Assembly: GCF_002633015.1 (NCBI RefSeq)
Contig: NZ_NSIU01000023.1
Location: forward strand, 1 to 36,006
Source of the DNA: Sulfuricurvum sp. PD_MW2
Lineage (GTDB): Bacteria; Campylobacterota; Campylobacteria; Campylobacterales; Sulfurimonadaceae
Length of the DNA stretch: 36,006 nt
Reading direction: 5' to 3'
The position numbers were made by a program, and so were the translations under genes. Below, in pieces: positions 22,348 to 34,947 of this stretch (its first letter is position 1; each line of letters opens with the position of its first letter). Below the pieces are notes generated by a model. It was not told where the DNA came from. It worked only from the letters and a program-made list of their open reading frames with translations, and did no database searches.

Positions 22348-22717
22348 GGGGGCGACATGGCTTCGACTGGATCAAGAAGGTTTAGGTTGCATCGCCGGAC
22401 TGAGCAGCTCCGTTATACGGCTCACCTTGCTTAAACGCAAACAACACTAATTACCGTCCTGCTTACGCTGTAGCGTAAGTTTAATTTAACTTAGGACTGC
22501 TCTACCTCTCTATGCTATCACCGAGAGGGTTTGGGGTATAACCACTGCGATAGCTATATTCTCAGAGTGCCTCGGATGGGAATGAATTTAGAGGATAGTG
22601 TGCTGTAGATTTGCACGTTGTGTGAAAGCCCACGAGATTTAAACAACGTTACTAAGCATGTAGACGCCTTTACTCACTTGGTTTAGGACTCCGGTTCAAT
22701 CCCGGACGCCTCCACCA
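22348..22717 (+). ncRNA. ssrA: tmRNA (transfer-messenger RNA)
   Basis: Rescues stalled ribosomes by trans-translation. The 5' end GGGGGCGACATGGCTTCGAC and 3' end with the T-arm GGTTCAATCCC and CCACCA are diagnostic, and 5' GGGGGCG pairs with 3' CGCCTCC to form the acceptor stem. The one-piece RNA is about 370 nt with CCA encoded. The tag frame at 22437-22478 reads ANNTNYRPAYAVA followed by TAA, close to the ANNVKFAPAYAKAA type of Campylobacter but ending in AVA. A stem-loop directly after the tag frame (GCTTACGCTGTAGCGTAAG) overlaps its last codons, as in other tmRNAs. Possible promoter: TTTACA at 22302-22307 with a poor -10 near 22325. Confidence 0.97.
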
Positions 22718-22861
22718 ATCTTTCAGCCTATTTCAAGTATTTTTTTCCTCATTTTATTTTTTTGTGTCCAAAGCAAACTGAATTTGAATCACAGTGTTAC
22801 CGTGTGTTTAAAAGCAGGATGATTTTTTTTGTATAATTTCGCATTTACATGGAGAAACGAT

Positions 22862-23428
22862 ATGAAAAAATTATATAGTTTGGTTGCAGCCGTTGTTCTC
22901 ATGAGCGGATGTTCGTATCAAAATGAAGCGATACAGCTTTCAGCGTATCAACCGCAGTATTTAGGCAAAACGACACAAGATCAAAACAGTGTTTCGTTTG
23001 TATCCGTAACGGATGGAAGAGATGATAAAACATCGATTGGATATGTTGAAGCCAATGGCGTAGTGACGTCAAAATTTTACAGTTATGTTGATTTTGCAAG
23101 CCGATACAAAGAAGCGATTAGCAGTGCGATGCAAGCTGGCAAGTTTAATATGGCAAAAAATGCAGCAGAAGCAAATGCAATTATTGGGGTAAAAATTAAA
23201 ACGATTCAGATCGTGTACAATGATACAAATAAATTTGATGAAAATCTTCGCGGTAAGATCGTGATTGAAGTGACCCGCACAAAAGGAGATAAAACGCTAG
23301 TCCAAACGATCACTCAGCAAGAGGGTAAATGGATAAAACCATCCTATACCTCTAAGGATATAGAACCACTCTTGGATTCACTATTCACCGATAGCATTAA
23401 CTCGATCGCGGCTAAATTGGCTGAATAA
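22862..23428 (+). CDS. YajG-like lipoprotein
   Basis: A 188-residue putative lipoprotein: MKKLYSLVAAVVLMSGCSYQ, with lipobox cysteine at residue 18. The body has the alternating strands and VSVTDGRDDKTSIGYV pattern that I associate with the YajG family of uncharacterised outer-membrane lipoproteins; that assignment is moderate. The start at 22862 is set by GGAG at good spacing and by the signal peptide; an 11-codon upstream extension is rejected. It is a single gene after tmRNA, convergent with the next. Confidence 0.72.
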   Translation: MKKLYSLVAAVVLMSGCSYQNEAIQLSAYQPQYLGKTTQDQNSVSFVSVTDGRDDKTSIGYVEANGVVTSKFYSYVDFASRYKEAISSAMQAGKFNMAKNAAEANAIIGVKIKTIQIVYNDTNKFDENLRGKIVIEVTRTKGDKTLVQTITQQEGKWIKPSYTSKDIEPLLDSLFTDSINSIAAKLAE

Positions 23429-23443
23429 ATAAGCATAAAGTAT

Positions 23444-24199
23444 TTAGAAACGTGTTGCGATTCCAAAACCGATAAAATTCGAAGAGTATCGGTTTAATCC
23501 CAACCCAACATTAAAATCGAGTTGAATATCATTACTCAACAAATAGGTCATACCCCCATCGATTGTTTTGGTATCGTGCATACTGGACTCTGAGGGCATG
23601 ATCGTATAAACCTCAATAAAACTCCCGATGCTTTCTGTGTGAGCAAATGAAGCCCCTAGCGAGAACTGCTGATTGTAGATTCTGTTGCTATCTATCTGAG
23701 ATGAACTTGCTTGAACGGTGCCGAAGAGCGTATTCTCATCTGAAAGTGAATAATCCCAGAGCAATCCGACTAACGGATCGGTACTGTCCGAAGTGGATGG
23801 AGCGGTTCCGGTGGGAAGAGAGAGAACTCCTAATAGCGTCAAATTGTACTGCTCATTCTCAATAAGTTTGTATTTTCCACCGACCGCCAAATCGGCTTTT
23901 GAATGTGCAGTTGGTGAGCCATCTTCTTTGTCTACATTAATACCATCCCATTGAATGTCAAACTCTGCATTTTCAGAGATTCCGGTGCGTAAAACCATCA
24001 GAGGAAGGGTGTGTGAAGAGGGTTTTGTATCATAATTGTTGAATGTGTATTGATAACCGAGTTCAACATTCACAACATTGGGCTTCACGGTTCGCGTACC
24101 GGTTGAAAATCCGGGACGATCTGGGGTGATGGCATCATCGTGAGCCCATCCATTGATGGTACACAATGCTACCAACAAAAAAGAATATGATTTTTTCAT
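23444..24199 (-). CDS. Outer-membrane beta-barrel, phenol-degradation MetA-like (transporter) family
   Basis: A 251-residue exported protein. The signal peptide MKKSYSFLLVALCTINGWA is followed by ITPDRPGFSTGTRTVKPNVVNVELGYQYTF, the N-terminal mark of the MetA-pathway-of-phenol-degradation family (PF13557), then repeated amphipathic strands ending in a terminal aromatic (ATRF), as in outer-membrane barrels. Family members are often annotated as transporters, without a proven substrate. It is divergent from the RND efflux operon across 143 bp, so it may share its control region; that link is inference. Confidence 0.75.
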   Translation of the reverse strand: MKKSYSFLLVALCTINGWAHDDAITPDRPGFSTGTRTVKPNVVNVELGYQYTFNNYDTKPSSHTLPLMVLRTGISENAEFDIQWDGINVDKEDGSPTAHSKADLAVGGKYKLIENEQYNLTLLGVLSLPTGTAPSTSDSTDPLVGLLWDYSLSDENTLFGTVQASSSQIDSNRIYNQQFSLGASFAHTESIGSFIEVYTIMPSESSMHDTKTIDGGMTYLLSNDIQLDFNVGLGLNRYSSNFIGFGIATRF

Positions 24200-24342
24200 C
24201 TTGATCTTTTTATATAAAATTATCTGTAATATTAACGTTAAATAGTTTGAAAACTATCTCATTTGTCGGTAATGGAGACTCTCATGATTTTCTCACGTTA
24301 AATCCCTACAATAACATCATATTTTTCTATAAAGGCTGAACA
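24200..24342. promoter_or_regulatory. Divergent control region of the metal-efflux operon
   Basis: No gene. ACGTTAAAT occurs as a direct repeat at 24235-24243 and 24295-24303, exactly 60 bp apart. A dyad ATAGTTT-GA-AAACTAT spans 24242-24257. A -10-like TACAAT is at 24307-24312 with no good -35, as expected for an activator-dependent promoter. The operon's own response regulator is the obvious candidate to bind, but this is inference. Confidence 0.4.
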
Positions 24343-24702
24343 GTGAAATTAATTTCCTTTGTTTCTTCGGCACTCTTTTCTTTATCACTGTATGGTGCTA
24401 TGGGCTCATCGGTGAGTATCCCGACGCAACAGCATCTCAAATACACGTTTGGAAACCATCGAAACCATCCGGTACAAATCATGGAAGAAAATCAATATTA
24501 TAAATCGATTGCACCGATGAAAGAAGCGGATGTACGCAACCATCTTTCCAATCAAGGGTATAGTATTGGAAGTATCCAATTGCGTGATATCGCGTCTGAA
24601 TTGGTCTATCAGGTGTACGCTCGAGATAATACGTCGAAAAATATAAAACTCTATGTAGACCCAAGCAATGGATCAATTTTAAAAATGGAAGCATGCCAAT
24701 GA
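24343..24702 (+). CDS. Small exported PepSY-like protein, first gene of RND efflux operon
   Basis: A 119-residue protein with a signal peptide (MKLISFVSSALFSLSLYGAMG). The second half (KEADVRNHLSNQGYSIGSIQLRD, then YVDPSNGSILKMEAC) has the helix-strand pattern and ending VDPxxGxIL typical of PepSY-type domains. PepSY proteins are periplasmic and often found with sensor kinases or metal transport genes. The start is GTG at 24343 with AAGG upstream. Its TGA overlaps the ATG of the TolC-like gene. The function is not known; a periplasmic metal or kinase-modulating role is only suggested by context. Confidence 0.7.
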   Translation: MKLISFVSSALFSLSLYGAMGSSVSIPTQQHLKYTFGNHRNHPVQIMEENQYYKSIAPMKEADVRNHLSNQGYSIGSIQLRDIASELVYQVYARDNTSKNIKLYVDPSNGSILKMEACQ

Positions 24703-25883
24703 AATTGAGATGGGGATACAGTTTGGTGTTACTCCCTTTTTTGGGACAAGCGATCACGTTTAATGAACTCACTAATCGTGCATCTGAGGTTTCGGAAGAG
24801 TTGATCGAATCAAATGGGCGTATGAATGCGATCGGTTTTGAAAAAGCTTCGGCGCTCGCGGGAGAACCATTGAGTATTGAAACATCGGCACGAAACATCA
24901 GAGCCGATAATACCAATGACAGTGGAAAAGAGTATGGGATCATGCTTGATTATGCGTTCAAGTTGCCTTCATTTAAATCAGCCAAGGCCAATGAGTTTGA
25001 TGTTCAGAAAAAAGAGACGGAACATGAAATAGCCGCTCGAAAAGCATTGATACAAGTTGCGCTAAAAAGGGGATGGCTTTTGTATCAGTTGGAGTATCAA
25101 AGAAGCCTGATCTTAAGTGAAAAACGTGATTTTTCTTATAAAGCGTATCAAATCGGAGAGAAAAAGTTCAAAGCGGGACGGTTATCGCAGATGGAGCTTT
25201 TGCGTTTGGAGAACGAATACCAAAGTACACTCCAAGAACTTGCAGCCGTTTCGATGGAAGCCGAACATGCACAGCATTATCTCAAAGGTGCCCTAATGTC
25301 AGATCAAGAGGTGATGGTGGATGATCTGAATTTTGCATTTATCTCTTCTTCTGCATTGGAAGAGAGGTTGAAAAATGCACCTTTATTGAAATCGCTTGAT
25401 CTTCGTATCGATGCATATAACGCTCAAATCGCGACACAGCGACACTCTACGATCGAATCGATTTCAGTAGGGGTGGGGATAACTCAAGAACCTACCCAAA
25501 ACAGTCTGGATGTACGATTGAGTATTCCTCTCTCCATCAGCAGTAAAAATGAGAATAAGATTGCAGCGTTGATGAGTGAACGAAGCGCTTTAGTCAATTT
25601 ACGAGAAGTGAGCCGACAAAAACTGGAATTGAGCGTTAAGGGGCTGTTTGAACATTTGAGAGAACGTGAAGAGAATATAAAAAAATTGGCCGAGAATGAG
25701 AAAAAGTACGAAACGCTTTTTACGATGGCTCAAAAAGGGTATGATGGAGGTGTAATCGGTCAGTTTGAATATCTGGCTTCCAAAAACGCTTATTATGAGG
25801 CACGTTTGCGTACGTTGAAGATGAAACAAAATTATATTGAAGAGATGAGTGTTATCGAAGAAAAAATTGGGGAGGTATGGTAA
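24699..25883 (+). CDS. TolC-family outer-membrane efflux protein
   Basis: The outer-membrane channel of the efflux pump. It is 394 residues with signal peptide MKLRWGYSLVLLPFLGQA, then long coiled-coil helices (about 90-190 and 290-380) in the two-fold repeat layout of OEP domains. It is shorter than usual for CusC/TolC (430-490). The start at 24699 is chosen because GGAAG lies seven bases before it and ATGA overlaps the previous stop; an ATG two codons earlier is too close to that site. A GGGGAGG near the 3' end serves the adaptor gene. Confidence 0.88.
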   Translation: MKLRWGYSLVLLPFLGQAITFNELTNRASEVSEELIESNGRMNAIGFEKASALAGEPLSIETSARNIRADNTNDSGKEYGIMLDYAFKLPSFKSAKANEFDVQKKETEHEIAARKALIQVALKRGWLLYQLEYQRSLILSEKRDFSYKAYQIGEKKFKAGRLSQMELLRLENEYQSTLQELAAVSMEAEHAQHYLKGALMSDQEVMVDDLNFAFISSSALEERLKNAPLLKSLDLRIDAYNAQIATQRHSTIESISVGVGITQEPTQNSLDVRLSIPLSISSKNENKIAALMSERSALVNLREVSRQKLELSVKGLFEHLREREENIKKLAENEKKYETLFTMAQKGYDGGVIGQFEYLASKNAYYEARLRTLKMKQNYIEEMSVIEEKIGEVW

Positions 25884-26932
25884 TGAAAAAAAGTATTTTT
25901 TTACTTATGATTGCGACGTTGATGAGCGCAGATATTAAAATGAGCGATGCTCAAATGAAAAAAATGGGTATTGCAGTTCAGCAGGTGAGAGAGATACAAT
26001 CCGAAGCAATGGGACCTTTTATCGGGACATTCGACTATAATGACAAAGGGGCTCGAAATTATACGTTGAGTTCCGAAGCAACCGTTGCAGAGTTGATGAA
26101 ACAAACCGGTGATACGGTCAAACCGGGTGAAGTCATTTGTACGATTGCCTCATCCGAACTGCTGGCAAGCAGTTATGAACTCAAAGATCTTCGCAATCGA
26201 CTAAAACTTGCACAAGAATATGCGCAAAAGGATCAGGCTCTTTACAAAGACGGTGTCATCTCATTACGCGAATCGCAAAAGAGTGCGTTGGATGTGATGA
26301 GTCTAAAAGCGAAAATCGGAGAAATACAGAACCGTTTCGTTTTTTCCGGTGCGGATGTCTCTCCTAAAAATGGGATGATGTTTACGATACGTGCCCGTCA
26401 AAACGGCATACTGGCTCATGCTCCTCTCAAGACTGGAGAGAAAATTGAGCCTTTTATGCCGTATTTGAAAATAGCGAGTGCCAATGCTCTAAGTGCCTTC
26501 ATTAAAATCCCGCCAAAGATGATCGGAAGCGTCCAAAAGGGAGCATTACTAATGGATAAGACTGGAAAAGAGGTCGGAAAAATTACGGCTATCTCTTCGG
26601 GTGTTGATATCTTGAACAATTCTGCAACTGCGATAGCGGTATTAGCCTCTAGTAACAACTATCGTGCCGGTACATCGGGTGAGTTTTATATCACTTCACT
26701 CCAAATGGACAAATGGGTATTACTTCCTAAATCCTCAGTGACAAAATACAAAAAAAATGATATCTGTTTTGTGAAAACTGCCAATGGGTTTACCCCTCAG
26801 ATCGTAGAGATTCAAAAAACCTATAAAGATCATGTTGCAATCAAACCGGCAGGATTAAATCTAACATCCAAAGTGGCAACGGATGGGATTATTATCCTCA
26901 AGGGAGCACTAAATGGATTGGGATTTGAGTAA
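25883..26932 (+). CDS. RND efflux periplasmic adaptor (CusB-like membrane fusion protein)
   Basis: A 349-residue adaptor linking the inner-membrane pump to the outer channel. It has a signal peptide (MKKSIFLLMIATLMS), a lipoyl half (SSEATVAELMKQTGDTVKPGEVICTIAS), a helical hairpin (about 95-150), the second lipoyl half (IRARQNGILAHAPLKTGEKIEPF) and a beta-barrel. It lacks the Met-rich N-terminal metal patch of CusB, although KMSDAQMKKMGI is present near residue 21. The start at 25883 overlaps the preceding TAA and has GGAGG seven bases upstream. It overlaps the pump gene by one base. Confidence 0.9.
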   Translation: MKKSIFLLMIATLMSADIKMSDAQMKKMGIAVQQVREIQSEAMGPFIGTFDYNDKGARNYTLSSEATVAELMKQTGDTVKPGEVICTIASSELLASSYELKDLRNRLKLAQEYAQKDQALYKDGVISLRESQKSALDVMSLKAKIGEIQNRFVFSGADVSPKNGMMFTIRARQNGILAHAPLKTGEKIEPFMPYLKIASANALSAFIKIPPKMIGSVQKGALLMDKTGKEVGKITAISSGVDILNNSATAIAVLASSNNYRAGTSGEFYITSLQMDKWVLLPKSSVTKYKKNDICFVKTANGFTPQIVEIQKTYKDHVAIKPAGLNLTSKVATDGIIILKGALNGLGFE

Positions 26933-29900
26933 TGATTAACTCTATTATTGAATTCTCTCTCAAACAGCGTCTGATTGTTATTTTACTTTCATTGGCGCTC
27001 TTTGGGGCGGGGATATACTCATTCTATAAAATTCCGATTGATGCATTTCCTGATATCTCCTCTACGCAAGTCAAAATTATCATGAAAGCACCGGGGATGA
27101 CCCCTGAAGAAGTTGAAAACCGTGTCGTTAAACCGCTGGAAGCTGAACTTTTGGGGCTTGAGAATCAAAAGCTTCTAAAAAGTACCTCCAAATATGCGAT
27201 AGCGGATATCACGATCGATTTCAATGACGGTACCGATATTTACCGCGCCCGTGCTCAGGTTTCCGAAAAACTCGCATCACTCTTGCCGACATTGCCAAGC
27301 GGTGTAGAGGGGGGAATGGCACCGATTACGACCCCTTTGGGTGAAGCTTTTATGTTTACCATTGAGGGGAATCTAAGCCAAAAAGAGAAACGAGAACTTC
27401 TCGATTTCGTGATTCGCCCGGTTTTACGAGGTGCAAAAGGGGTCGCGGATGTCAATGCCCTCGGTGGTGAAGCGCGCGCGATTGTTGTACAGCCTGATTA
27501 TACGGCAATGCGGGATTTAGGGATACCGCTGAGCGTTCTCAAAGAGACTCTGGAAAATAATCTCAAAAACGACGGTGCAGGACGCGTTGATGCCAATGAA
27601 GAGAGCTATCTGGTCAAAGTACAAAGCGGTGTGAAAGATGCCGGTGAGATTGCCAATATTACGATCCACTCCCATAATGGTCCGATCCGTATCGGTGATT
27701 TTTGTGAAGTTCGTGACGATGCACGCACTCGATTGGGATACGTGACCAAAGACGGTATCGGCGAAGCAACGGAAGGTCTGATCCTAACACTTAAAGGGGC
27801 TAATGCCCAAGAGACGATTGCTCAGATCAAAGAGAGATTGGAGCAACTTAAACCACAACTTCCTACGGGTGTCACAATTGTGCCGTTTTACGATCGTAGT
27901 GATTTAATCGAAAAAGCGGTTGGTACGGTTTCAAAAGCATTGGTTGAAGCTATCGTGTTGGTTATTGTCCTTTTGATGCTGTTTTTAGGTGATGTCCGTG
28001 CCGCGATTGCGGTGAGTGTCATTTTGCCGTTTTCGATCGCGATTGCATTTTTGTTGATGAAGTATTTTGGATTAAGTGCCAATTTGATGAGTTTGGGCGG
28101 GTTGGCAATTGCCATCGGTATGTTGGTCGATTCTGCGGTTGTTGTCGTTGAGAATTCTTTTGCCAAATTGAGCGAGAATAACACGTCACTGCCGAAATTG
28201 CATCAGGTTTACCGAGCAACACAAGAGGTGAGTACGGCAGTTTTTAGCGGTATTTTGATTATTGCCGTCGTATTTTTGCCGTTGTTAACGTTAGAAGGAT
28301 TAGAGGGAAAACTTTTTGCTCCTGTTGCAATGACCATTGTTTTTGCATTATTCGGATCACTTCTCCTGTCATTGACACTTATACCGGTAGTCAGTTCTTT
28401 GGTGCTCAAAAGTACACCGCATAAAGAGACGTTTATCGGGAACTTTTTTGCCCGTCTGTATGAGCCGATGCTCTCTTTTGCATTGAACCGTACAAAACTC
28501 CTTTTTAGCGGAGCTATCGCTTTTTTGATTGTCAGTTTTACGTTATTCGCGTTTGTAGGGAAAAGCTTTATGCCGACTTTGGATGAGGGAGATATTATTT
28601 TGGGGGTAGAGACACCTCCGTCGATTTCGCTTGAAAAATCCAAAGAGCTGAATCTAGCCATACAGCGCACACTGATTGCAAACGTTCCGGAGATAAAAAC
28701 CATTGTTGCACGTACCGGATCGGATGAACTCGGACTGGATCCTATGGGGCTAAATCAAACCGATACGTTTATTACGCTTAAGGCGCAGACAGAGTGGCAA
28801 GCCAAAAACAAAGAGGAAATCAAAGCAAAAATCCAAGAATCGCTCAAAAATTTCCCCGGTATCAGTTTTAGCTTTACACAGCCGATTGAGATGCGTATAT
28901 CTGAAATGTTAACCGGTTCACGTGGGGATTTGGCGATCAAGATTTATGGGAATGACATCGATACGTTAAATACATTGAGTCAAAAAATTGCCGATACGTT
29001 AGATGAGGTAAAAGGGTCTTCCGAAGTCTTTACCACTCTGAATGAAGGGGTCAATTATCTGAGCGTAAAGCCGAACCGTACAGAATCGGCAAAGACCGGT
29101 GTGGATACGGCGGAACTCGAACTCTTTTTGAAAACTGCTCTGGAGGGGGTCACGATAGATGAACTTTCCGTGGAGAATACGAGAATTCCGGTTTTAATGC
29201 GTCTGGATGGTGAAGTCTCTCAGGATATGGAACTTTTCAAATCGTTAGAACTCCCTTTGAGTGACGGGTTTTCGGTACCGATTTCGAGTGTAGCTCAGAT
29301 CGAAACGAGTGAAGGGGCTTTGAAAGTCGATCGTGAAAATGCCAAACGATACAGTACTGTTCGTGCCAATGTTGAAGGCCGTGACTTGGTCGGTTATGTG
29401 GAAGAGGTCAAACAAAAAATCGATGCGAATGTTAAACTTCCAAACGGATACACTATCGTCTATGGAGGGCAGTTTGAAAACCAACAGCGCGCTGCTGCAA
29501 AATTGATGACGGTTATTCCGATCAGTATTGGTGTCATATTTTTGATTTTATTCTTTACGTTCCGTTCGGTGAGTTCGACAACCCTTATTTTGCTCAATAT
29601 TCCCTTTGCCGTGACAGGGGGGATTATCTCGCTGTATTTCAGCGGAGAGTATCTCTCGGTTCCGGCATCGGTCGGATTTATCGCCCTTTTCGGGATCGCG
29701 GTTCTCAACGGTGTCGTGATGGTGAGTTATTTCAATACGTTGCTGGGCAGCGGTTATTCGATCGATGATGCCGTTGCTGAGGGTGCACGCAGACGGCTTA
29801 GACCGGTTTTGATGACGGCGTTTATCGCTGCATTGGGATTACTGCCGTTGTTGTTTGCAACAGGTGTGGGAAGTGAGATCCAAAAACCGCTTGCGATTGT

Positions 29901-29988
29901 TGTATTGGGCGGATTGGTGACATCGACGATTTTAACCCTTTTGATTCTTCCTCCTGCATTTAAAATGATCTACAAAAGAGGCAAATGA
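26932..29988 (+). CDS. Heavy-metal-type RND efflux pump (CusA/CzcA family)
   Basis: Proton-driven inner-membrane pump, 1018 residues, with the standard RND layout of two periplasmic loops (about 35-335 and 560-870) and twelve transmembrane segments. Transmembrane segment 4 reads IAIGMLVDSAVVVVEN with D400 and E407, the proton-relay pair of CusA and CzcA. The extra Asp that zinc/cobalt/cadmium CzcA pumps carry six residues earlier is Ala394, as in the copper/silver CusA group. Of the CusA methionine pathway only one candidate (in EMLTG, about residue 660) is apparent. The family is clear; Cu/Ag specificity is possible but not shown. Coupled TAATG junction upstream. Confidence 0.93.
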   Translation: MINSIIEFSLKQRLIVILLSLALFGAGIYSFYKIPIDAFPDISSTQVKIIMKAPGMTPEEVENRVVKPLEAELLGLENQKLLKSTSKYAIADITIDFNDGTDIYRARAQVSEKLASLLPTLPSGVEGGMAPITTPLGEAFMFTIEGNLSQKEKRELLDFVIRPVLRGAKGVADVNALGGEARAIVVQPDYTAMRDLGIPLSVLKETLENNLKNDGAGRVDANEESYLVKVQSGVKDAGEIANITIHSHNGPIRIGDFCEVRDDARTRLGYVTKDGIGEATEGLILTLKGANAQETIAQIKERLEQLKPQLPTGVTIVPFYDRSDLIEKAVGTVSKALVEAIVLVIVLLMLFLGDVRAAIAVSVILPFSIAIAFLLMKYFGLSANLMSLGGLAIAIGMLVDSAVVVVENSFAKLSENNTSLPKLHQVYRATQEVSTAVFSGILIIAVVFLPLLTLEGLEGKLFAPVAMTIVFALFGSLLLSLTLIPVVSSLVLKSTPHKETFIGNFFARLYEPMLSFALNRTKLLFSGAIAFLIVSFTLFAFVGKSFMPTLDEGDIILGVETPPSISLEKSKELNLAIQRTLIANVPEIKTIVARTGSDELGLDPMGLNQTDTFITLKAQTEWQAKNKEEIKAKIQESLKNFPGISFSFTQPIEMRISEMLTGSRGDLAIKIYGNDIDTLNTLSQKIADTLDEVKGSSEVFTTLNEGVNYLSVKPNRTESAKTGVDTAELELFLKTALEGVTIDELSVENTRIPVLMRLDGEVSQDMELFKSLELPLSDGFSVPISSVAQIETSEGALKVDRENAKRYSTVRANVEGRDLVGYVEEVKQKIDANVKLPNGYTIVYGGQFENQQRAAAKLMTVIPISIGVIFLILFFTFRSVSSTTLILLNIPFAVTGGIISLYFSGEYLSVPASVGFIALFGIAVLNGVVMVSYFNTLLGSGYSIDDAVAEGARRRLRPVLMTAFIAALGLLPLLFATGVGSEIQKPLAIVVLGGLVTSTILTLLILPPAFKMIYKRGK

Positions 29989-30275
29989 TGCATTTAACGA
30001 GCATGGATATTTATTTCGAGATTACTAATAAAGATATTTTAGTTGATTTATTATTGGAAGAAGGCTATGATGATTTTTATTTTTTCCCTTGCAAACGATA
30101 CAGTGCGGGAGCTTTTTTGATCAGTGCCGAGGAGCAGGTGAGTGCGAGACGGGATTTTGGTTTATTTCGTCTTTTTTTACATGAGACGGAAGCTATCGTT
30201 CTCTCTGCAGCGATCAAAAAGGAATTAAAAGATAAAACCATCAAAATATTTCTCAATGAGCTAAAAGAGTTATAA
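29985..30275 (+). CDS. DUF3240 (PII-like) protein of metal RND operon
   Basis: A 96-residue cytosolic protein that fits the DUF3240 family, PII/CutA-like small proteins commonly encoded behind czcA-type pump genes. Features: ILVDLLLEEGYDDFYFFPCKRY, then LISAEEQVSARRDFGLFRLFLHE, then a helix ending in FLNELKEL. Cys in FPCKRY could bind metal. The ATGA overlap with the pump stop and immediate abutment with the response regulator show one transcript. The start may be either of two adjacent ATG codons. The role is unknown; regulation of the pump or metal binding is inferred. Confidence 0.72.
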   Translation: MMHLTSMDIYFEITNKDILVDLLLEEGYDDFYFFPCKRYSAGAFLISAEEQVSARRDFGLFRLFLHETEAIVLSAAIKKELKDKTIKIFLNELKEL

Positions 30276-30923
30276 ATGCGAATACTGATCGCCGATGACG
30301 AACCGGAACTTTTAGAATTACTCAAACTTTCATTGCAGAATGAAGCGTGGGTGATAGATACGGTTGGTGAAGTAAAAGACGCCAAAGGATATCTTGATGC
30401 GTATACATATCAGATTTTTCTTGTGGATCGAACATTCCATGGAAAAGATTGTGTTCAGGAATTGATTACGTACGGCAAAGATAAAAATCCTTTGATGGGG
30501 ATTTTAGTGTTGAGTGCATTGGGTAGTATCGATGAAAAAGTGCAAGGACTGGAATACGGTGCAGATGATTATTTAGAAAAGCCGTTTGATATCAAAGAAC
30601 TGCGTGCACGATTAATGGCTTTATCACGCCGTTTTGTCCCAAAAATTAAATTTTTTGAAGACCTGGAAATAGATACACAGTCCAAAAAAATTAAAAAATC
30701 CGGAAATGAGATTCTCCTCAGCAGCAATGAGCAAAAACTATTTTTTTATCTTTTGGAACGAGAATCAATCGTTTCGCGAGATGAAATCATGGATGCCATT
30801 TATGATAATCCTGAAAATATTACCTCAAATGCCATTGATGAATTGGTCGGTCGCATACGCCGAAAGCTCCATCCGGGTATCATTAAAACCATAAAAACTC
30901 GAGGGTATTTAATTGCGATTTAA
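30276..30923 (+). CDS. OmpR-family response regulator of the efflux operon
   Basis: A 215-residue regulator with D7-D8 (IADDEP), phospho-acceptor D51 (FLVDRTF, an unusual loop where most have DLxLP), L-S-A at the Thr/Ser position, and LEKPFD with the conserved lysine near 105. The winged helix (about 120-215) ends in KTIKTRGYLIAI. It begins directly after the DUF3240 stop. It probably controls this operon in answer to the metal exported. Its end overlaps the kinase start by 11 bases. Confidence 0.9.
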   Translation: MRILIADDEPELLELLKLSLQNEAWVIDTVGEVKDAKGYLDAYTYQIFLVDRTFHGKDCVQELITYGKDKNPLMGILVLSALGSIDEKVQGLEYGADDYLEKPFDIKELRARLMALSRRFVPKIKFFEDLEIDTQSKKIKKSGNEILLSSNEQKLFFYLLERESIVSRDEIMDAIYDNPENITSNAIDELVGRIRRKLHPGIIKTIKTRGYLIAI

Positions 30924-32127
30924 ATGGGCTATGTCGTTAAAGTTTAAGATTGCCCTCATTTTTGCATTCGGTTTAGCGATAGCCTTCAGTATCAATTTAA
31001 TCATTGCCGCAAAAACGATTCATACACAGAAAGAAGAAGATGTAGAAAAAGTATTGACACACCTGCTTGTCGAAAGCAACGATGAATACATCAGTAGTGT
31101 ACTAACTCCTTCGAGCGATCTCAATTTTTTATACACTATTCCTCATAATATGATGATTCTATCCGATTCAGAGGTGAATGCCCTTCGCTTTATGATCTCG
31201 ACCAATCCCTATCGAACAAATGAAAAATTTATTGTCTCCTCTATCAAACTTGCCAATAATTATTATCTCAATGCGATCAGCGATCACCGCAAAATTGATG
31301 AAGCGACCTATAAATATACACAGGTATTGATCTTTCGTTATGTTGTTTCATTGATCATTATTTTACTCATCACTATCGTCGCCCTTGATTTCTATATGAA
31401 GCCGTTGGAACAATTAGCCATCAAAACAAAAACGTGGAAACGAGAGAACCCTTATGATTTTGTTTTGGATGATGCCTCATCGGAGATCAAAGAGGTATCA
31501 AGCGCTTTTGAGGGATTGGTAAAGAGATTGGAATCGTATCGCCAAAAAGAGACTGAACTCTTTAAAGAAGCGGCACATGAACTCAAGACCCCCTTAGCAT
31601 TAATGCGATCGAGACTGGACGTCTATGAAGTGAGTGATCACTATGAGAAAGATAAATTTATTGCTGATCTCGGGCAGGATATCGAACGATTAACCAGAGA
31701 GCTGAAAAATGTTCTTTTTCTTGAAAGTTCAGATTTTGAAGAGTCCAGCACAATAGATATCATTCATGTTTTTAAAATGCTAGAGCGAAAAATGGATATT
31801 TTGATCCAGCGAAAGGGACTGAAATTGGAACTTCCGACAGAAACGTTTACCGTAGTTGCATCGGAAAAACTGCTGTTTAAAGTTTTGAGTGCATTGCTTG
31901 AAAATGCTATTACCTACGCAAGAGAAGATACTATTGTCGAAGTAGGTTGTCTTCCGCTGGAAAGAAAAGTGTGGATTTATAATAAAATTGGAACAGAAAA
32001 ATATTTGTTCAGTTCGAAAATAGGAGAGAAAATACTTAAACGTCTGCGTAGTGAAATAGGATTTGATTACAAGATCGATCAAAATAAAGACTCTTTTCAA
32101 ATCGAGCTGATTTTTTTCCCAGCATAA
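30913..32127 (+). CDS. Sensor histidine kinase of the efflux operon with degenerate G2 box
   Basis: A 404-residue membrane kinase. A transmembrane segment lies at about 10-28, a periplasmic domain at about 30-135 and a second segment at about 138-160, followed by linker and DHp with H222 (EAAHELKTPLALMRSRLD). The N box LLENAITYA is normal, but the ATP lid is very short. G1 reads IYNKIG without the usual Asp, and where GLGLxI should be there is KIGEKILK. ATP binding and kinase activity may therefore be weak or lost. The start is TTG at 30913 with GAGGG seven bases upstream; ATG at 30931 is the alternative. It is the last gene of the efflux operon. Confidence 0.85.
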   Translation: MRFKWAMSLKFKIALIFAFGLAIAFSINLIIAAKTIHTQKEEDVEKVLTHLLVESNDEYISSVLTPSSDLNFLYTIPHNMMILSDSEVNALRFMISTNPYRTNEKFIVSSIKLANNYYLNAISDHRKIDEATYKYTQVLIFRYVVSLIIILLITIVALDFYMKPLEQLAIKTKTWKRENPYDFVLDDASSEIKEVSSAFEGLVKRLESYRQKETELFKEAAHELKTPLALMRSRLDVYEVSDHYEKDKFIADLGQDIERLTRELKNVLFLESSDFEESSTIDIIHVFKMLERKMDILIQRKGLKLELPTETFTVVASEKLLFKVLSALLENAITYAREDTIVEVGCLPLERKVWIYNKIGTEKYLFSSKIGEKILKRLRSEIGFDYKIDQNKDSFQIELIFFPA

Positions 32128-32172
32128 AACTGCTTTTTACTTTCCCAATACCTCAAAAAGAATAATTTATAC

Positions 32173-32199
32173 TTATTTTTTAATTCCATTAAAAAATAA
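32173..32199. repeat. AT-only perfect inverted repeat
   Basis: TTATTTTTTAAT and ATTAAAAAATAA form 12 perfect base pairs around TCC. It sits 15 bp upstream of the next promoter's -35 box and 46 bp after the sensor kinase stop. With no GC pairs it is a poor terminator; it may be an UP-element-like or H-NS-type AT tract, or a weak bidirectional terminator. Confidence 0.55.
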
Positions 32200-32213
32200 C
32201 TTTATTAAATATA

Positions 32214-32242
32214 TTGACACATATACTACAAGATGATACAAT
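32214..32242 (+). promoter_or_regulatory. Sigma-70 promoter of the 79-residue gene
   Basis: TTGACA at 32214-32219, a 17-base spacer and TACAAT at 32237-32242, close to consensus. The downstream gene has GAGG seven bases before its ATG at 32271. Confidence 0.78.
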
Positions 32243-32270
32243 AGTCAAATCTAATCATTGAGGTTATAAA

Positions 32271-32510
32271 ATGTTAACTAGTTCCAGTGATGCTTATGAT
32301 AGACAACATGTGATGAAACGTTTGATTGATATCTCCACTGAACACATGGTGGTAGCCTATCGGGCAAAGATGACCAACTACGAAATCTTGTTGTGTCAGG
32401 AGATCAGTTCGATCGGGAATATCTCTTTACTCGAAGTACTTGAGAAAATGGCTGACTACAAACAAACAAGCGAATTTTTGCTGTATAAAAAAGATTTCAT
32501 CTTTATCTAA
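32271..32510 (+). CDS. Small orphan protein upstream of parA-like gene
   Basis: A 79-residue protein that I do not recognise. It has a near-consensus promoter and a GAGG ribosome binding site, so expression is likely. It is mainly helical by composition (RQHVMKRLIDISTEHMVVAYRA, then LLEVLEKMADYKQTSEFLLY), with one cysteine (LLCQEI), no signal peptide and no transmembrane segment. The first residues (MLTSSSDAYD) look unstructured. It is separated from the ParA-like gene by a promoter and operator array, so it is a separate transcription unit in the same neighbourhood. Confidence 0.65.
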   Translation: MLTSSSDAYDRQHVMKRLIDISTEHMVVAYRAKMTNYEILLCQEISSIGNISLLEVLEKMADYKQTSEFLLYKKDFIFI

Positions 32511-32516
32511 CACGAT

Positions 32517-32626
32517 ACTGTAAAGGTCCATTATCCTACAAAGGCCATAGTATATAATATAAGTTTTATACAGTAAAAAACTTGACATTAACTGTTTTTT
32601 AGTGGTATGATACTGTAATAAACAGT
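32517..32626. promoter_or_regulatory. Helically phased ACTGT/ACAGT site array
   Basis: Five sites occur in 110 bp: ACTGT at 32517-32521, ACAGT at 32570-32574, ACTGT at 32591-32595, ACTGT at 32612-32616 and ACAGT at 32622-32626. Centre-to-centre distances are 53, 21, 21 and 10 bp, all close to multiples of 10.5. The first and fourth share the longer context GATACTGTAA. The third lies in the promoter spacer and the fourth directly after the -10. This suits a dimeric regulator such as the RHH protein at 33269, or a centromere-like site. Confidence 0.55.
32582..32611 (+). promoter_or_regulatory. Promoter of the ParA-like/RHH/lipoprotein operon
   Basis: TTGACA at 32582-32587, an 18-base spacer and TATGAT at 32606-32611. 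It is overlapped by two ACTGT sites and flanked by others, so repression by occlusion is likely. The start codon at 32647 has only a weak ribosome binding site (GGGA). Confidence 0.72.
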
Positions 32627-32646
32627 TTCATAATATGGGAAAATAG

Positions 32647-33237
32647 ATGAATATAACTATTGTCAATTTTAAAGGCGGTGTCGGAAAATCGATGATCGCT
32701 CATCAGCTTATTTCAGGGTATGGATTTAACGGATACGAGATTGATCCTTATGGATCACTTTCCGATCGATTACCTGAAAGTGTTCTACGAGTTGATATTC
32801 AAGAAAAAAAAATCGAAGAACCAAAAAAGGAAACCATTTTTGATTTTGGCGGATTTGACGATGTCAAGCTCGATCAAGCTATCAGTTATTCCGATTTGAT
32901 TGTTATCCCATTTATACCGACTCTAGAGACGATACAAGGAACTGTTGATACATTGGTACGGGTCGCTTCAGCCAATAAACCGATTCTCATGGTACCGAAT
33001 ATGAGTCAAAAAGAGAATGATATCAATGATGCAAAATTTGTTTTTGAAGAGACATTGGGTTTTGAGATTGAAATGTTTCCGATTCCGATGAGTGTTGCAC
33101 TTCAGACCGCTATCAATGAGAATTGTGCAGTGGGAGATCTTTCCAAACAAGGTGGAATCAAAGCCTATGCGTATAAAAAAAGTTCAAAAATCATTGATGA
33201 TCTACACGCCAAAATACGAGAATATGAAAATCTTTAA
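32647..33237 (+). CDS. ParA/MinD-like deviant-Walker ATPase
   Basis: A 196-residue SIMIBI-class ATPase. The deviant Walker A is KGGVGKS (residues 9-15, with signature K9 and K14), the switch I region is YEIDPYGSLSD (about 31-41), and the Walker B-like IFDFGGFDD lies near 64-72, where D-F-G replaces the usual D-x-P. It lacks the N-terminal DNA-binding domain of P1-type ParA and matches the short Ib type (about 190-220 residues). Such proteins position plasmids, chromosomes or protein clusters. An RHH protein follows 31 bp later, the normal partner for short ParAs. No replication gene is present, so plasmid partition is doubtful. Confidence 0.85.
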   Translation: MNITIVNFKGGVGKSMIAHQLISGYGFNGYEIDPYGSLSDRLPESVLRVDIQEKKIEEPKKETIFDFGGFDDVKLDQAISYSDLIVIPFIPTLETIQGTVDTLVRVASANKPILMVPNMSQKENDINDAKFVFEETLGFEIEMFPIPMSVALQTAINENCAVGDLSKQGGIKAYAYKKSSKIIDDLHAKIREYENL

Positions 33238-33268
33238 TTCGATACGATCGAGCTAAAGGAGAGGGTAA

Positions 33269-33520
33269 ATGGAAGAAGTTAAGGAAAATAAATTTGCTTC
33301 TCGTGTAACACAACGAGAGCTCTCTACACACAAAGAGATTCAAACGGCCAAACATCCAGGCGGACGTCCGAAAAAAACAGACGAGATCAAGCAGAGCGAA
33401 AAAGTTTTTTTGACATTGACAAAAACCGAAAAAGCGAAATTGGATGAGCATACTGCGCGCACGGGTGAATCAATAGCCGGTGCAATCCGAAGAGCCTTAA
33501 AAGAAATGGGAATGATATAA
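33269..33520 (+). CDS. Ribbon-helix-helix DNA-binding protein, ParB-like partner
   Basis: An 83-residue protein with a basic, flexible N-terminal half holding an AT-hook-like GGRPKK (residues 31-36) and a C-terminal ribbon-helix-helix: strand KVFLTLT, helix EKAKLDEHTARTG and helix ESIAGAIRRALKEMG. In short-ParA systems such proteins bind arrays of short repeats near the operon promoter, act as repressor and centromere binder, and stimulate the ATPase through the N-terminus. AAAGGAG precedes the ATG. The array at 32517-32626 is its likely target (inference). Confidence 0.78.
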   Translation: MEEVKENKFASRVTQRELSTHKEIQTAKHPGGRPKKTDEIKQSEKVFLTLTKTEKAKLDEHTARTGESIAGAIRRALKEMGMI

Positions 33521-33533
33521 CAAAGGAGTATGA

Positions 33534-34331
33534 ATGAAACGATCACTTATAGTAGCTATGTCTTTGGTAGTGTTTGCAGGGTGTGCACCGCAACCTACGG
33601 CACAGGTGCCTCAAAAAGCATGTATGAATGCTGCACAGCTAAACTCGTACGGTTATGATCATCTTGAAAAAGTAGCAAAACTGTTGCGTGAAGACAAAAA
33701 GAATATTGAAGCGTTTGATGGTTTTATAGCAACGATGAAGGGTACGGTTGATAATTATGCAGATATGATCAAATCGAGTGTCTATATCAGTAATGTTGTC
33801 CGCTTTTTACCGATACCGTATGCAGGAGAGGTTTCAAATACAACCAAGTTGGTTTCTAAAACTGTACTCAACCTCGGTGGTGCAGCGAGTGCTCTGAATC
33901 GGTATAAAAACAGTTCGGATACATTTTTAACGACTTTTGATAAAATGAACCGCACGAGTGTTAGCGGTGCTGAAATCTCAAAGTTGGCGGTATTCGCCGA
34001 TACAAAACTGTTGAACGATGCAAAAGATTTGGAAAATTCATTGAAGGATATTTCAGAGTCAACAGCAGCGATGGCAGCGACTACTCAGGGAATTTCTGAT
34101 GCGTTGGAAAGCACTGGAAATTATGTGAATCAAGCCAAAACATTTGTTGGTTTCTCGCAACCGGCTAATGATGATAAATCAAAAGTGGTACAAAATCGTA
34201 ACTCAATCAATACTCGTATGGCACAACTTAGCCAAAAAATTGTCTCTTTGGAAAAAAGCGGCGAAGCACAACGCCTTAATATTGCAAAAGCCCGAATCTA
34301 CTCAGAGTTGGCTGTACAATTGGAAAAGTAA
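33534..34331 (+). CDS. Putative lipoprotein of unknown function in the ParA-like operon
   Basis: A 265-residue protein. MKRSLIVAMSLVVFAGCAPQ is a lipoprotein signal with lipobox cysteine at residue 17. The mature part is almost wholly helical: KVAKLLREDKKNIEAFDGFIATM, then a glycine-rich stretch near SNTTKLVSKTVLNLGG, then long polar helices with heptad-like spacing to the C-terminus. I do not recognise the family. AGGAG lies five bases before the ATG, 13 bp after the RHH stop, so it is in the same transcript. An exported lipoprotein in a ParA/RHH operon is unusual. A good terminator lies 38 bp after its stop. Confidence 0.72.
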   Translation: MKRSLIVAMSLVVFAGCAPQPTAQVPQKACMNAAQLNSYGYDHLEKVAKLLREDKKNIEAFDGFIATMKGTVDNYADMIKSSVYISNVVRFLPIPYAGEVSNTTKLVSKTVLNLGGAASALNRYKNSSDTFLTTFDKMNRTSVSGAEISKLAVFADTKLLNDAKDLENSLKDISESTAAMAATTQGISDALESTGNYVNQAKTFVGFSQPANDDKSKVVQNRNSINTRMAQLSQKIVSLEKSGEAQRLNIAKARIYSELAVQLEK

Positions 34332-34368
34332 GGTGTATGCTAAATAGTTAGAGTAAGAGAGATAAATT

Positions 34369-34390
34369 GAAAAAGGCTTATGCCTTTTTC
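34369..34390. terminator. Bidirectional Rho-independent terminator
   Basis: GAAAAAGGC and GCCTTTTTC form nine perfect pairs around TTAT, with the A run and T run inside the arms, so it can work for both converging operons. The stop codon of the minus-strand phnA-like gene (34378-34380) lies in the loop. Confidence 0.8.
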
Positions 34391-34947
34391 ATAAATGCAG
34401 CGACCAATACGATCGTTGAGCCGTTGATTTTTCCCTCGATATAGCGTGGATCATCCGTTAGACGAATATTTTTAACAATTGTTCCACGTTTTGCGGTAAA
34501 TCCTGCCCCTTTTACTTCCAAATCTTTGATAAGCGTTACGGTATCACCTTCTGCCAAGATGGTTCCATTGCTATCACGTTGGATAACTGCGCCGCCCTCG
34601 TCATTACTTGCTGTGTTGAGCATTCCTGCTTCTGCCCACACTTTTACATCATCCTCAAGATACATCATTTCGAGTTGATCTTGATCTCCAAGTGCACTTA
34701 GAAGACGATATGCCATGACCTGTACAGCTGGAACTTGGCTCCACATACTGTCTCCAAGACATCGCCAATGGTCTGTATCAAGTCCTTGCGGATTTTGGAT
34801 TTGGCTTTTGCAGGTTTCACAGATATAGATCGATTGATCTGCTGAACCATCACTCGGAGCGACGCCAAACGGTGCCAGACCTTCTGTTGCACCGCATAGT
34901 TCACAAATGTTTCCGCTTCGTTCACTTAATGTTTGTTCAATACTCAT
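34378..34947 (-). CDS. PhnA/YjdM-type zinc-ribbon protein
   Basis: A 189-residue protein. The N-terminal zinc ribbon has C15-x2-C18 (CELCGA) and C43-x2-C46 (CETC). The middle (about 55-110) is specific to the longer form. The C-terminal domain (DSNGTILAEGDTVTLIKDLEVKG, then GTIVKNIRLTDDPRYIEGKING) is the well-conserved PhnA/YjdM beta domain. Despite the historical name, the family is not needed for phosphonate breakdown and its role is unclear. It is much longer than E. coli YjdM (about 111 residues). It starts at 34947, likely in tandem with the hydrolase gene 45 bp upstream on the same strand. Confidence 0.85.
   Translation of the reverse strand: MSIEQTLSERSGNICELCGATEGLAPFGVAPSDGSADQSIYICETCKSQIQNPQGLDTDHWRCLGDSMWSQVPAVQVMAYRLLSALGDQDQLEMMYLEDDVKVWAEAGMLNTASNDEGGAVIQRDSNGTILAEGDTVTLIKDLEVKGAGFTAKRGTIVKNIRLTDDPRYIEGKINGSTIVLVAAFMKKA

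Follow-up and report, generated by a model that had tools for sequence, protein, structure and literature searches.

Genes for a short ParA-like ATPase and a ribbon-helix-helix (RHH) partner lie directly in front of a lipoprotein gene in the 36,006-nucleotide stretch of Sulfuricurvum sp. PD_MW2 DNA analysed here (the window). The locus raises the question of what a plasmid-type partition pair does on a bacterial chromosome, where plasmid-type cassettes are easily read as debris. The initial annotation offered two readings, a remnant of an integrated plasmid and a device for positioning an envelope-linked cargo, and we found no literature on a ParA–RHH pair in Sulfuricurvum among open-licence papers. 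Our analyses lead us to favour, as the probable explanation, a plasmid-type (type Ib-like) cassette composed of an RHH operator array, parA and rhh, resident on the Sulfuricurvum chromosome and kept by selection, with the lipoprotein gene as a downstream passenger. A cassette that is kept with its DNA sites, under strong selection across the genus and with close plasmid relatives, makes it possible to ask what role a partition system can have without a plasmid.

Anatomy of the cassette and its promoter array

All genes of the operon are on the forward strand. The ParA-like ATPase (32647–33237, 196 aa) is followed by the RHH partner (33269–33520, 83 aa) and by the helical lipoprotein (33534–34331, 265 aa) at the operon end, with gaps of 13–31 bp, and a terminator-like hairpin (34368–34391) separates the lipoprotein gene from the convergent yjdM. 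These three genes, and a 79-aa orphan on the same strand (32271–32510) that is a neighbour outside the cassette, lie where the initial annotation had placed them; the open reading frames, the Pfam matches of ParA and RHH and the conservation of the genes bear it out.

The ParA passes the curated cut-off of the Pfam CbiA family (31 bits against 25.4), but is distant from curated models such as NF041546 (24.9 bits against a cut-off of 180). Its KGGVGKS motif, residues 9–15, is invariant across 10 homologues and is accompanied by EIDPYGS and by FDFGGFDD, which is unusual where a classic Walker B is the rule in ParAs. The N-terminal DNA-binding domain is absent, so that the protein is a short ParA without an N-terminal helix-turn-helix and with the deviant Walker A KGGVGK[ST] found in type Ib systems. 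The RHH protein narrowly passes Pfam RHH_1 (21.4 bits against 20.5). In its predicted structure, a low-confidence tail precedes two confidently modelled C-terminal helices. Matches in the PDB are weak (E 0.85 or worse) and mostly to RHH proteins, including the centromere-binding ParB of pCXC100. The basic N-terminal tail is conserved (RVTQRE, GGRPKK), and a small RHH protein with a flexible N-terminal tail, encoded directly 3' of parA, is again the type Ib arrangement.

The lipoprotein has a lipobox that reads FAGC in the open reading frame. Its predicted structure consists of four long helices (mean pLDDT 68), and the fold has no significant match in the PDB. Distant relatives with 24% identity occur in another family of the same order (G076:C88:4393-5109 and G093:C48:3720-4409). 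A Pfam search returned no family above the cut-off for either the lipoprotein or the 79-aa orphan. The orphan is one of a small protein family, four copies of which are encoded in G016 (noted at G016:C4). The proposal that the orphan has its own promoter holds in that a promoter-like match is present (TTGACA-17-TACAAT), but the region as a whole contains no more such matches than its shuffles (8 against 8.0).

The operon itself is preceded by a promoter-like site on the forward strand (32582–32611, TTGACA-18-TATGAT), which is bracketed by an array of ACTGT or ACAGT half-sites (32570–32626). The half-sites are ACAGT at 32570, ACTGT at 32591, ACTGT at 32612 and ACAGT at 32622, that is, at −77, −56, −35 and −25 from the parA start codon, with starts 21, 21 and 10 bp apart. 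A further ACTGT half-site at 32517–32521, −130 from the parA ATG, occurs in the window's genome only. In the 136 bp of 32511–32646 there are five half-sites, where dinucleotide shuffles give 0.50 (P about 5e-5). Among the 16 loci of the genus, CTTGAC 5' of parA is conserved in 15, the remaining locus being cut short. The −35/−25 core is intact in most, including the relocated copy in G017, and altered in G014 and G034; the −56 half-site is degenerate at many of these loci. The window's genome has a single copy of the core ACTGTN5ACAGT, the 10 matches of this core in five genomes together do not exceed those of a reversed control pattern (14), and the three-site pattern was found in these five genomes solely at parA. 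Further arrays were therefore rejected.

Type Ib systems carry repeats upstream of the operon, to which an RHH repressor binds, and the tail of this repressor has an arginine finger (PMC5016525). The Sulfuricurvum cassette shares with TP228 parFGH, pSM19035 delta–omega–parS and pCXC100 the short ParA devoid of an N-terminal DNA-binding domain, the small RHH partner with its flexible tail, the partner gene downstream, and direct and inverted repeats upstream, at the operon promoter (PMC5016525). It differs in being chromosomal, in having no adjacent replication genes, in its short array and in the extra lipoprotein gene at the operon end, and the studied type Ib proteins are not close in sequence to its ParA or RHH. 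The chromosomal array is short, with four or five half-sites, and is therefore no more than a candidate centromere. The cassette may work like a type Ib plasmid partition system; full membership is not claimed, because the plasmid is missing and RHH binding is only predicted.

The most likely mechanism, and the most economical one, is autorepression by RHH dimers that bind the ACTGT/ACAGT array at the promoter, with ATP-bound ParA engaging the RHH–DNA complex. The RHH tail would then stimulate the ParA ATPase, by analogy with ParF–ParG or delta–omega, the conserved arginines of RVTQRE being no more than a lead. With no plasmid to segregate, the chromosomal cassette would act on its own locus, which it would regulate and might also tether. 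That the domesticated pair goes further, and actively positions or anchors the chromosomal locus via its single array, as a second, RHH-based anchoring beside an ordinary ParABS, is a tentative idea to which we give a rather low probability. It is unlikely, too, that the cassette is only a transcription regulator, in which the RHH protein and ParA as its co-factor set the expression of their own operon and of the lipoprotein with no movement of DNA. Such a role would suit an array that brackets a single promoter and has a core unique in the window's genome, but three genomes carry the pair without the lipoprotein, which therefore cannot be the sole target, and a mere repressor would not obviously need the invariant nucleotide site of ParA.

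Chromosomal setting and plasmid relatives

The window, a single 36-kb contig from an assembly of 2.26 Mb, ends 1.7 kb past the lipoprotein gene, the far right side being known from relatives only. Since the same locus is found in 2.36-Mb and 2.57-Mb chromosomes of relatives, it is chromosomal, as the initial annotation had supposed. In two complete, dnaA-first chromosomes, the cassette lies at 0.76–0.79 of the length, about 0.5–0.6 Mb from dnaA, whose position was taken to measure the distance from the origin. A separate chromosomal parB gene is present elsewhere; the cassette itself differs from a chromosomal ParABS in that its partner is an RHH protein and its site is not near the replication origin. 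The absence of replication and mobility genes was likewise upheld: the proteins examined around the window locus include no Rep, integrase or relaxase, and the flanks of the G017 copy are core genes. While a type Ib system resides on the low-copy plasmid that it stabilises, the Sulfuricurvum cassette resides in megabase chromosomes, in G017 beside serS.

The part of the window from the tmRNA gene ssrA to the lipoprotein gene (22348–34331) differs from species to species and looks like a variable region. Insertion into ssrA (22348–22717) was rejected, as no stretch of 12 or more of its last 80 bases recurs elsewhere in the window. A viral origin was also rejected, as neither phage records nor IMG/VR contigs gave a match, and so was a defence system, as PADLOC gave none.

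Nitratiruptor plasmids with annotated replication initiators encode the closest ParA and RHH proteins found outside the genus. The proteins of pNitYY0814, pNitYY0918 and the G077 plasmid are about 62–65% (ParA) and 43–46% (RHH) identical to the window pair. The plasmids of these Nitratiruptor strains have been described as circular, with sizes of 24–35 kb (PMC9723563). The same array arrangement precedes parA on pNitYY0918 and on the G077 plasmid (contig C2), and a second site pair, in the parA–rhh gap, is common to the G077 plasmid and some Sulfuricurvum genomes, but lost in the window's clade. Unlike in Sulfuricurvum, the pair in these relatives is on a plasmid, circular and with a replication initiator in the two named ones, and is not accompanied by the lipoprotein gene, which was found on none of the plasmids.

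A 56% identical ParA is encoded with TraC, DnaB-like and DnaG proteins on L145, a contig binned as Gracilibacteria, and a 47% identical one with a Rep3 initiator on L146, a Campylobacterales contig. The plasmid-type relatives G094, L144 and L145 have no ACTGT motif 5' of parA. At about 40% identity, ParA relatives are found on large contigs of G353, where the protein beside the pair has no Pfam match, and of G405, where a phage-type integrase lies about 3 kb away. Because plasmids with replication genes carry the closest relatives of the pair beyond Sulfuricurvum, we assign it a plasmid origin, and a move from plasmid to chromosome is the direction that these outgroup relatives suggest. As side observations, L145, which carries the ParA–RHH pair, is possibly a misbinned Campylobacterota plasmid, and type II secretion/pseudopilin-like and glycosyltransferase-like genes lie near the par pair on pNitYY0918 (as annotated), L144 and L146, a possible shared plasmid cargo noted for L144, L146 and L125.

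The existence of related Campylobacterota plasmids with the same array raises another possibility, namely that the cassette is kept for interference with related incoming plasmids (incompatibility), like ParI of a Pseudomonas putida genomic island, or that it helps a related plasmid in trans. ParI provides a precedent of a chromosomal ParA that destabilises plasmids (PMC9178275), and a conditional benefit would fit the patchy presence of the cassette. However, ParI acts as a lone ParA, whereas the whole cassette is retained here, and in the complete G016 genome the exact core site is on none of the four smaller contigs; we regard this role as improbable.

As a type Ib-like cassette resident on the chromosome, the locus can be set beside other partition-type genes found on chromosomes. 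The chromosomal ParMR of Desulfitobacterium and others is likewise a plasmid-type cassette conserved on the chromosomes of a genus beside an ordinary ParABS, with no role found, but ParM is actin-like and not a Walker ATPase (PMC12270681). The ParA–RHH cassette is the Walker-ATPase counterpart of this case, with a defined array. The orphan ParAs ParI, PpfA and BcsQ are also chromosomal ParA-family ATPases away from the main parAB, but are without a ParB-type DNA-binding partner and site (PMC9178275); the Sulfuricurvum cassette has both. It also departs from the protein-cargo orphan ParAs of the PpfA and McdA type, in that an RHH partner and a conserved DNA array are present and the lipoprotein is not obligate.

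Separability of the lipoprotein gene

The genus sample comprised 41 genomes, of which 40 are relatives and one is the window's own. Of these 41, 29 encode the lipoprotein and 16 the ParA–RHH pair: 13 genomes have both, 16 have the lipoprotein but no intact pair, three have the pair but no lipoprotein, and nine have neither. Some of the assemblies are incomplete, which makes each count of absence an upper bound. The parA gene of G012 is divided between the ends of two contigs, and rhh of G026 could not be scored because undetermined bases interrupt it. An RHH partner stands beside every close ParA homologue, and the identity of ParA across the genus is 73–94%. The patchy presence of the cassette shows that it is dispensable.

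These distributions bear on the envelope-linked cargo. The proposal amounts to the three genes forming one machine, in which ParA and RHH position an envelope-linked complex containing the lipoprotein. In all 13 genomes with both, the lipoprotein gene is the next gene after the pair, separated by a short gap or, in some genomes, with overlapping start and stop codons, and the distances of ParA correlate with those of the lipoprotein (Spearman 0.71). But the same correlation is seen with YjdM, the product of an unrelated neighbour (0.81), and the presence of the pair and that of the lipoprotein are not associated over the 41 genomes (Fisher P 0.31). Without a membrane-spanning part or a linker, the lipoprotein would sit outside the cytoplasm in which ParA and RHH act, and no plasmid relative carries it. 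The envelope-cargo reading fails because lipoprotein and pair so often occur apart, the lipoprotein without the intact pair in 16/29 of its genomes, an outcome set beforehand as refuting, and the pair without the lipoprotein in 3/16; we hold a single machine to be very unlikely.

The lipoprotein gene is thus a separable and more widespread neighbour; in genomes where it follows the cassette, it is probably co-transcribed from the par promoter. In G004 and G023, the orphan is directly 5' of the lipoprotein gene with no pair between them. In G015, the gene before the lipoprotein clusters with the L,D-transpeptidase-like gene beside the G029 pair.

Selection and descent

Median dN/dS across the 11 loci with the pair is 0.057 for ParA, 0.050 for RHH and 0.087 for the lipoprotein, with 0.059 for yjdM over 12 loci; synonymous sites are near saturation, so these ratios are rough. 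The pN/pS values agree (ParA 0.12, RHH 0.14, lipoprotein 0.22, yjdM 0.16). Genus-wide conservation with pN/pS of 0.12–0.14 shows that ParA and RHH are not chance open reading frames, and dN/dS near 0.05 that the cassette is under purifying selection and not decaying. It is highly doubtful that the locus is decaying debris from an integrated plasmid or island, without a function today. Its plasmid relatives, its patchy presence, the truncated rhh of G037 and the loss of the second site pair in the window's clade would fit decay, but dN/dS is near 0.05 for both genes, albeit over pairs with near-saturated synonymous sites, Walker A and RHH are intact in nearly all copies, and the promoter and array are conserved. 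Of the remnant proposed initially, the plasmid origin stands, given the Rep-bearing plasmid relatives, while the decay does not.

The pair occupies three chromosomal sites: before the lipoprotein gene; in G017, between serS and a laccase-family gene, neighbours that Pfam confirms; and in G001, amid another set of genes, read by eye only. In G037, only the C-terminal half of rhh remains, before the lipoprotein gene, which is direct evidence of one loss. The correlation of ParA distances with those of the lipoprotein and of YjdM is the pattern expected under vertical descent. The gene trees are without strong conflict, many of their forks being weak, and vertical descent with losses and some relocation would fit these sequences better than repeated transfer.
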